Positions 28,937-30,757 of a stretch of DNA of 64,000 nucleotides are shown here, piece by piece; the stretch's first letter is position 1, and each line of letters begins with the position of its first letter. The position numbers were made by a program, and so were the translations under genes. The stretch covers positions 2,294,001-2,358,000 of the forward strand of contig NZ_AP027361.1 in the NCBI RefSeq assembly GCF_030295915.1, in the 5' to 3' direction. Source of the DNA: Thalassotalea sediminis. GTDB taxonomy: Bacteria; Pseudomonadota; Gammaproteobacteria; Enterobacterales; Alteromonadaceae. The notes under the pieces are model-generated. The model saw only the letters and a list, made by a program, of their open reading frames with translations. It had not been told where the DNA came from and did not search any database.

Positions 28937-29536
28937 ATGTGTTCCCCTTTATTCGAGGATGATAATACCGACCTAAAGTTAAGCAACAAAGCGAAATTGA
29001 ACAAGCAGTTAGCATCTCGGCCTTTAATGCGTTTATTATTTCATTTAGTACAACGTTAGATCCTGTCATTATTGGGATGAAAGCCTGATATGTCTTTCTA
29101 GTTAATGTTCATTCATGTTTAGGCAACATCCATAATACGGCGTTCTGAACAACATCAATGATAATTCCCCTATCATAGTAATAGCTATACTTTTCATCGC
29201 TATTATTCAACTAAACATGACTCTATTACGCTGACAACCTTTTTACAACATAAATACAATAATCAAATAAACATTTGAAAACAAAACGTTAGCAATATAG
29301 TAACTAATTTCTATTTTTAACGCCTTGCTGTTTAACAGGAACTTTTTTACTTCTTAATCGTGTTTGATAAATGTAAGCAGTTCATCAGTACATAGTTTTT
29401 AGATAACCATTTGTTATTTTTACACACTCTTTAACCGTTGGAGTATATTTCGATATTACCCAACATTATGACTAATTCGGATCATTTAGCGTCAACAATG
29501 AGCAAGGATCGGCCTCAAAGTAAAAGGAAAAAAACA
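28937..29536. other. 600-base AT-rich region upstream of the bacteriocin-like gene
   Basis: No supported gene. It should hold the promoter of the NUDIX gene on the minus strand and of the peptide gene on the plus strand. An open frame continues upstream of 29537 to 29438, but the good ribosome site is at 29524-29528. Confidence 0.5.
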
Positions 29537-29674
29537 ATGAGAGAATTAAACGTAAATGAAATTCAAAAAGTAAATGGTGGAAATAAAAAGCTATTTTGGA
29601 AAGCGTTAAAATGGGTGGCGGCTAATATCGGCAGCCCTGCGCCTAACCGGTATACGGGGGGATTTCACGGTTAA
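29537..29674 (+). CDS. Double-glycine-leader peptide, candidate class II bacteriocin/microcin precursor
   Basis: 45-residue precursor from the ATG at 29537, preceded by AAAAGGAAAAAAACA. The leader MRELNVNEIQKVNGG fits the double-glycine type: Leu at -12, Ile at -7, Val at -4 and Gly-Gly at -2/-1. Processing would release a 30-residue basic peptide starting NKKLFWKALKWVAANIG, an amphipathic Trp-containing helix, followed by a Gly/Pro/aromatic tail ending FHG. A longer in-frame start at 29438 is possible but less likely. A terminator and then a CPBP protease gene follow. No C39-type ABC exporter is in the window. Activity is inferred from leader and context only. Confidence 0.72.
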   Translation: MRELNVNEIQKVNGGNKKLFWKALKWVAANIGSPAPNRYTGGFHG

Positions 29675-29692
29675 AGATATTGTAATGTCATT

Positions 29693-29725
29693 ATGACTTC
29701 TTAAATATTTAGAAGTCATATTTTT
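29693..29725 (+). terminator. Terminator between the peptide gene and the CPBP gene
   Basis: ATGACTTCT (29693-29701) pairs with AGAAGTCAT (29711-29719) around a 9-base loop, followed by ATTTTTATT. Partial termination here would give more peptide mRNA than protease mRNA, a common design in bacteriocin operons. Confidence 0.7.
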
Positions 29726-29785
29726 ATTCGAGCTTGTAGTTTATCCAATTTTTCAAAGGATACATTTAAACAAAAGGAAAACATA

Positions 29786-30757
29786 ATGCGCCGCCATGAA
29801 AAAACAGAGGATTTACTCAAGGCGAGTTCAACATACAGTGATGACAAAGCAGATAAACCCAGTATTTTAGGGGCGCTTTACATAACCTTTTTAGTACTAA
29901 TTGGTACTCTGTTTATGCAGTTTGTTTTTTTAATACCACTTTTAATTAATGGTATGTTAACGCTCGATATGTTTAATCTGCCACCAAGTGAATTTAGTGA
30001 AACCTTAGGTATTAAGGGGGAAGCCTTTATTTTACTAGCTGAATTAATCGCGTTAATAATTTGTATAAAAATAGCTTTTCACATTCAAAAAATTCCATTT
30101 AGCATAATTGGTTTTAAGCTAAATGGTTATAAAACGGATGCAGTGTTAGGCGCTTTGGCAGGAATAATTATAATTACAATATGTTTCTTTCTATTAGTCA
30201 GCACTGGCTATATCTCATATACTGTTCAATCGTTTAGCCTTGTACCTTGGGTAGCGAGCTGTTCACTCTTTTTATTAGTAGCTGTTTCAGAAGAAATACT
30301 ATGCAGAGGTTTTATTCAAGGTCTGTTGATGAGAGCAACAACACCTTATTTAGCGCTATTCATTTCATCTGTAATATTTATGGCACTTCATTTAGGAAAT
30401 GTTAATTGGACATTAATTTCACTCATTAACCTATTTCTAGCAGGCGTTACCTTTGGGCTTTATTATTTATATACGAGAAATTTGTGGTTTCCTATTACGC
30501 TCCATTTTACTTGGAATCTTTTTCAAGGCACCGTTTTTGGTTTCGAAGTTAGCGGTCATAAAATGGCAAGTTGGCTAGCGATCGTTCGAACAGAAAACTC
30601 ACTCATCACAGGTGGTAAGTTTGGTCTAGAAGGTTCAATTTTAGTGACGGCTTTAGAGATACTGTTGATTGTACTGATCCAATTAAAGTTTACTTCAAGT
30701 AAATCCACGTCAAATGAACGTAAACTTATTAACTTATCACCCAAAGCGTTACGTTAG
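29786..30757 (+). CDS. CPBP-family intramembrane metalloprotease, candidate bacteriocin immunity or processing protein
   Basis: 323 residues with about eight membrane helices. The CPBP (Abi/CAAX) motifs are intact: EEILCR (EExxxR), FMALH (FxxxH) and HFTWN (HxxxN). The start follows AAAAGGAAAACATA. CPBP proteins encoded beside class II bacteriocins act as self-immunity proteins in lactic acid bacteria. Position 111 bases after the double-glycine peptide supports a similar role here. A general membrane protease unrelated to the peptide is the alternative. Confidence 0.85.
   Translation: MRRHEKTEDLLKASSTYSDDKADKPSILGALYITFLVLIGTLFMQFVFLIPLLINGMLTLDMFNLPPSEFSETLGIKGEAFILLAELIALIICIKIAFHIQKIPFSIIGFKLNGYKTDAVLGALAGIIIITICFFLLVSTGYISYTVQSFSLVPWVASCSLFLLVAVSEEILCRGFIQGLLMRATTPYLALFISSVIFMALHLGNVNWTLISLINLFLAGVTFGLYYLYTRNLWFPITLHFTWNLFQGTVFGFEVSGHKMASWLAIVRTENSLITGGKFGLEGSILVTALEILLIVLIQLKFTSSKSTSNERKLINLSPKALR

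Follow-up and report, generated by a model that had tools for sequence, protein, structure and literature searches.

A double-glycine leader peptide gene adjoining a CPBP protease gene in Thalassotalea sediminis, a putative bacteriocin and immunity cassette

The peptide gene and its CPBP neighbor

In the window, by which we mean the whole 64,000-nucleotide stretch of Thalassotalea sediminis DNA that was analyzed (C1:2294001-2358000), a 45-codon gene is followed on the same strand by a gene coding for a CPBP intramembrane protease. The features of the locus are as follows.

29231..29260, + strand: promoter-like pair CTGACA-18-TACAAT, a weak site from a consensus scan
29524..29528, + strand: Shine-Dalgarno-like AAGGA of the peptide gene, read from the sequence, ~8 nt 5' of the ATG
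29537-29674, + strand: peptide ORF of 45 codons, reading MRELNVNEIQKVNGG and then NKKLFWKALKWVAANIGSPAPNRYTGGFHG
29537..29581, + strand: double-glycine leader of 15 residues, MRELNVNEIQKVNGG (leader-model E 4.9e-8, with the window leader itself in the model)
29582..29674, + strand: predicted mature peptide of 30 residues, NKKLFWKALKWVAANIGSPAPNRYTGGFHG, plus the stop codon, backed by core constraint and a recurring tail
29693..29719, + strand: hairpin ATGACTTCT-N9-AGAAGTCAT and then T-rich sequence, found by folding, between the peptide and CPBP genes
29774..29778, + strand: Shine-Dalgarno-like AAGGA of the CPBP gene, read from the sequence
29786..30757, + strand: CPBP (type II CAAX/Abi) intramembrane protease of 323 aa, a predicted immunity protein (PF02517)

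The leader is as well formed as an earlier note on this DNA had described it, with Leu at -12, Ile at -7, Val at -4, and Gly-Gly, and it matches the Gram-negative double-glycine motif given in PMC4462113. A second Thalassotalea genome (G001, locus L036) has an orthologous peptide and CPBP pair, and the two peptide genes differ by 15 synonymous and 5 nonsynonymous changes over 45 codons, with a dN/dS of 0.05 for the gene and 0.03 for the core. Judged by this substitution pattern, the 45-codon frame is confirmed as translated and under strong purifying selection; the model match and the constrained frame place the precursor among double-glycine class II bacteriocin precursors, with cleavage predicted. 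An upstream extension to a TTG at 29438 was rejected, since the ATG at 29537 has a ribosome site and the upstream frame is absent by eye in G001. The block around the promoter-like pair shows partial conservation with G001 (CTTTTTACAAYATAAATACAA; blastn of the spacer block), and the consensus scan finds such sites no more commonly than in shuffles.

The predicted mature peptide has a charge of +5, a pI of 10.6, and two Trp residues, and the precursor lacks Cys. Its cationic character therefore stands as earlier described, but the proposed amphipathicity is not established because the hydrophobic moment of the core is not above that of shuffles (~17% reach the core value). The peptide matches nothing in Pfam, including PF10439 (Bacteriocin_IIc) and PF17508 (MccV), and its best NCBIfam match, NF038034 (lactococcin G-beta), reaches 14.4 bits where the cut-off is 37; it is above the cut-off in none of the curated bacteriocin families PF10439, PF17508, TIGR03949, and NF038034. 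There is no second double-glycine peptide in the window unit, as a class IIb (two-peptide) system would have, and no modification enzymes are evident among the ORFs listed around it, the neighbors being read from that list.

The neighboring gene is an intact CPBP gene, as the earlier note had it. The protein matches PF02517 with an E-value of 1e-19 and 71 bits (gathering cut-off 22.4) and has all the catalytic motifs, E169 E170 xxx R174 (EExxxR), F198xxxH202 (FxxxH), and H240xxxN244 (HxxxN), which are invariant among 10 aligned relatives; dN/dS between the window and G001 genes is 0.12. Its AlphaFold model (pLDDT 84.7) aligns with SpdC (6u0o_A; Z 17.9 over 238 residues) and Rce1 (4cad_I; Z 13.7 over 226 residues), both far above other chains; Foldseek alone gives weak matches (best E 0.011), and a sequence search of solved structures with the CPBP profile gives none. 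The model thus indicates that the protein keeps the Rce1/SpdC membrane fold, and proteolytic activity is predicted.

The hairpin lies in the 111-nt gap between the two genes, and its G001 counterpart, ATGACCCCT/AGGGGTCAT, has paired changes on both stem sides. A simple intrinsic-terminator scan left it unscored, and Rfam finds no known regulatory RNA in the region. The hairpin is probably a partial terminator or an mRNA-stabilizing element, and the genes form a two-gene unit, probably with attenuated read-through.

The exporter and other leader-peptide loci of the genome

The earlier note saw no C39 exporter in the window and reasoned that one would have to be encoded elsewhere. This proves correct: the sole C39 protein of the complete 3.9-Mb genome is a 715-aa ABC exporter at C1:281486-283633, ~2 Mb from the window, with intact QAEVAECGLA (C motif) and HFVVL-x9-INDP (H motif) signatures and with Cys, His, and Asp all present. 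A HlyD-like adaptor gene (284469-285716) lies 0.8 kb upstream of the C39 gene in the same orientation, and four proteins, each with two OEP (TolC) domains, are candidates for the outer-membrane channel. The genome thus codes for a C39-peptidase ABC transporter, and we assume that it handles the window peptide. Just downstream of the exporter gene lies a 58-aa ORF, MKDIKEHKALISIQGGNADTV... (C1:281064-281240, - strand; locus L002), with a weak double-glycine-like leader that the leader model misses; it is a possible native cargo.

Searching the whole genome with the leader model yields only five matches at E<=0.001, across three loci, and a CPBP gene lies directly downstream at all three; these account for three of the six CPBP genes in the genome. 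No regulatory sequence common to the three loci and the exporter was found. At C1:926k, two double-glycine peptides are followed by a 289-aa CPBP gene, and at C1:744k one peptide is followed by a 160-aa CPBP gene and then by a leader remnant lacking the Gly-Gly. The adjacent peptides of the former (C1:925.0-926.1 kb, - strand; L005/L030/L078) have Gly-spaced motifs in their cores, AALILWTILLLGHEALNELGKGIGAGVYDATH and GLMRDIGYEIGSGLAGEWGKELGNWLYEVTH, and look like a two-peptide bacteriocin; the CPBP protein encoded after them belongs to the same subfamily as that of the window. The remnant, MRELNVNELKQVDEGHVCIG and a stop, lies directly after the 160-aa CPBP gene (L046:1501-1563; C1:744638), and we regard it as a decayed peptide gene. 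Differing double-glycine peptide and CPBP cassettes occupy the site 3' of thymidylate synthase among Thalassotalea genomes (L077, which is the C1:744 kb locus of this genome, L111, L116, L118, and L176), and in G003 (L176) the same site holds a CPBP gene lacking a recognizable double-glycine peptide; the site is possibly one of cassette swapping.

Linkage and loss of the pair in Alteromonadaceae

The closest named loci are in Thalassotalea sp. 1_MG-2023 and Thalassotalea sp. PP2-459, and two of the genomes compared, G001 and G004, are placed in the same genus as the window. The conservation of the peptide that the earlier note would have it show is found within the genus, where identity is 89%, but beyond it there is only similarity of the tail and leader. 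Among 369 gammaproteobacterial genomes sampled there are no full-length relatives of the core outside Alteromonadaceae; the one extra match of that search, in an Alteromonadaceae genome, covers the leader alone.

Leader matches occur in 84 of 397 family genomes, and we took the best of these, 80 regions amounting to 0.65 Mb, as a linkage sample. CPBP genes, called by a home-made profile and motif check rather than individually by Pfam, are present in 27 of the 80 regions (32 genes), and C39 and/or HlyD genes are present in 43, with 15 regions having both; the operon order HlyD-GG-CPBP-C39 is seen at L083, L107, L131, L133, and L137. All of the CPBP genes are downstream of the peptide on the same strand, most of them <=130 nt away; the one at L124 follows a frameshifted peptide whose leader and core do not share a frame. 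There are 83 PF02517 genes in 36 family genomes, or ~0.56 per Mb, so that ~0.4 would be expected in 0.65 Mb, and CPBP genes are thus enriched ~90-fold over background downstream of double-glycine leaders; this is the co-occurrence that the earlier note proposed to check. The regions contain 136 distinct peptide cores, and 45 of the 53 without CPBP have another membrane ORF <=700 nt downstream by a loose criterion of hydropathy only.

In two genomes the CPBP gene outlives its peptide. In G002 (a complete genome) and G004, the peptide gene and hairpin are deleted between short direct repeats and the upstream region is kept, yet the CPBP ortholog is intact in both. A second peptide in G004, of the L109 type (L124), has two one-base deletions, which may partly be a matter of sequencing, and its CPBP frame is open. 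Retention of CPBP genes without the peptide therefore fits immunity, with selection for protection, and not a maturation protease. By position, linkage, and this retention, the CPBP gene corresponds to the adjacent membrane immunity gene of class II systems, with immunity itself predicted.

The CPBP subfamily of the window is also found with no double-glycine peptide nearby (L165, L167, L037, and L039), and it may therefore have roles beyond bacteriocin immunity. These four proteins have an SG...LITGGxFGxEGS signature and come from other Thalassotalea as well as from other genera and phyla.

Interpretation and relation to known systems

We consider it highly probable that the locus is a two-gene cassette coding for a double-glycine-leader class II bacteriocin and a predicted CPBP immunity protein, with the exporter elsewhere in the genome. 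The evidence is of a genomic kind: the frame is translated and constrained, the motifs of the exporter and of CPBP are intact, the linkage recurs, and CPBP is retained after peptide loss. From it we infer export, killing, immunity, and a proteolytic mechanism. The 45-residue precursor would be made in the cytoplasm, and the C39 domain of the sole C39 ABC exporter would recognize and cut the 15-residue leader; together with the HlyD-like adaptor and a TolC-type channel, the exporter would release the cationic mature peptide of 30 residues. This peptide would kill or inhibit close relatives, with the inner membrane as its most likely site of action, and its conserved C-terminal tail may serve in uptake or docking. 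The CPBP protein, in the inner membrane of the producer, would protect it, probably as a glutamate-type intramembrane protease that cuts either the incoming peptide or the membrane target of that peptide.

The CPBP protein might instead serve maturation or release, removing the leader or trimming the peptide further, since the gene directly after the peptide does code for what looks like an intact intramembrane protease. However, the C39 exporter has an active site of its own that is intact, two thirds of the leader-peptide regions have no CPBP gene (many of these encode C39/HlyD themselves), other membrane ORFs take its place, and the CPBP frame remains open after deletion or frameshift of the peptide; we regard such a role as decidedly improbable. 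Alternatively, the peptide could be a secreted signal of the pheromone kind, or it could bring about self-lysis or control biofilms, and CPBP would then modulate the response; cyanobacteria and Gram-negatives have small proteins, exported by this route, that can take part in biofilm development (PMC4997328) and in autolysis (PMC11798529). Such a role for the peptide seems unlikely, given that the ORF list around the unit has no evident sensor-kinase and regulator pair adjoining it, that the cores are far more diverse than a conserved pheromone would be, and that genomes carry multiple differing cassettes and keep CPBP genes where the peptide is missing. Chance adjacency of two functionally unrelated genes would accord with the 111-nt gap and its hairpin and with the existence of the CPBP subfamily on its own, but the conservation of the pair in G001 and the enrichment of CPBP downstream of double-glycine leaders make it scarcely credible.

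The arrangement of the bacteriocin and immunity cassette is already known, as microcin S/McsI, the Aliivibrio wodanis plasmid locus, and the plantaricins precede it, and it is the individual peptide family that is new. The novelty suggested in the earlier note thus holds for the peptide but not for the arrangement, which has Gram-negative precedents (PMC3316575, PMC4462113); among the titles and abstracts searched, none describes the window peptide family or any Thalassotalea bacteriocin. McsI, a CAAX-family protein encoded next to the double-glycine-leader microcin S gene of Escherichia coli G3/10, has been shown to confer immunity (PMC3316575). That system likewise has a Gram-negative double-glycine peptide gene and then a CAAX/CPBP gene, with a HlyD-type adaptor and a peptidase ABC exporter; however, the microcin S precursor is Gly-rich, Cys-containing, and 120 aa long, compared with 45 aa and no Cys here, McsI has 216 aa against the 323 aa of the window CPBP, and the genes form a compact four-gene cluster, whereas the exporter of the window unit is elsewhere in the genome. 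In A. wodanis, also a marine gammaproteobacterium, pAWOD920 carries a double-glycine bacteriocin gene, C39 exporter and HlyD genes, and a PF02517 gene as the proposed immunity determinant, and strains with the locus inhibit relatives (PMC4462113). Unlike the window unit, it is a plasmid six-gene locus with mceI/mceJ-like genes, and its authors describe its peptide as lacking similarity to other proteins.

In lactic acid bacteria, the counterparts are the Abi/CPBP proteins PlnI and PlnL (plantaricins EF and JK) and SkkI (sakacin 23K), as cited in PMC8538875, and here too a membrane-bound putative protease tied to self-protection adjoins a class II bacteriocin gene; these hosts are Gram-positive, and plantaricins EF and JK are two-peptide bacteriocins, unlike the single peptide of the window. 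Class II microcins of the MccV type (CvaA/CvaB/TolC; PMC9746304) share the double-glycine leader, the C39 exporter with an intact triad, the HlyD-like adaptor, and the adjacent membrane immunity gene, but the window peptide does not match PF17508, and immunity proteins of the verified microcins are short (51-216 aa; PMC9746304) compared with the 323-aa CPBP. The Thalassotalea cassette would extend CPBP-type immunity, known in E. coli microcin S and in lactic acid bacteria, to a marine family, in a layout of one exporter hub with scattered peptide and immunity pairs and a large dispersed cassette set.

The tail of the window peptide, RYTGGFHG, recurs in L109, where the N-terminal half is unrelated. 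Four independent pairs (L079/L109, L081/L107, L096/L105, and L078/L128) have a common C-terminal tail with unrelated N-terminal halves and CPBP proteins, other example tails being DWGxSMxDxDTNLAP and KELGGWLYEITH. Among 19 non-redundant units, CPBP similarity is not correlated with similarity of either the N-terminal half or the tail (Mantel r 0.01 and -0.12), and a modular reading therefore rests on the four pairs. We tentatively speculate that Alteromonadaceae bacteriocins may be modular, with a constant C-terminal tail for a common step (receptor docking or uptake) and an N-terminal half exchanged together with its cognate CPBP; if so, one tail can bear different active parts with different immunity. 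The orphan CPBP genes of G002 and G004 and the common tails with unrelated CPBP genes offer natural tests of immunity specificity. At L144 (G373:C1:173672-182258), C39 and HlyD genes are followed by a tandem series of ten short ORFs with double-glycine leaders.
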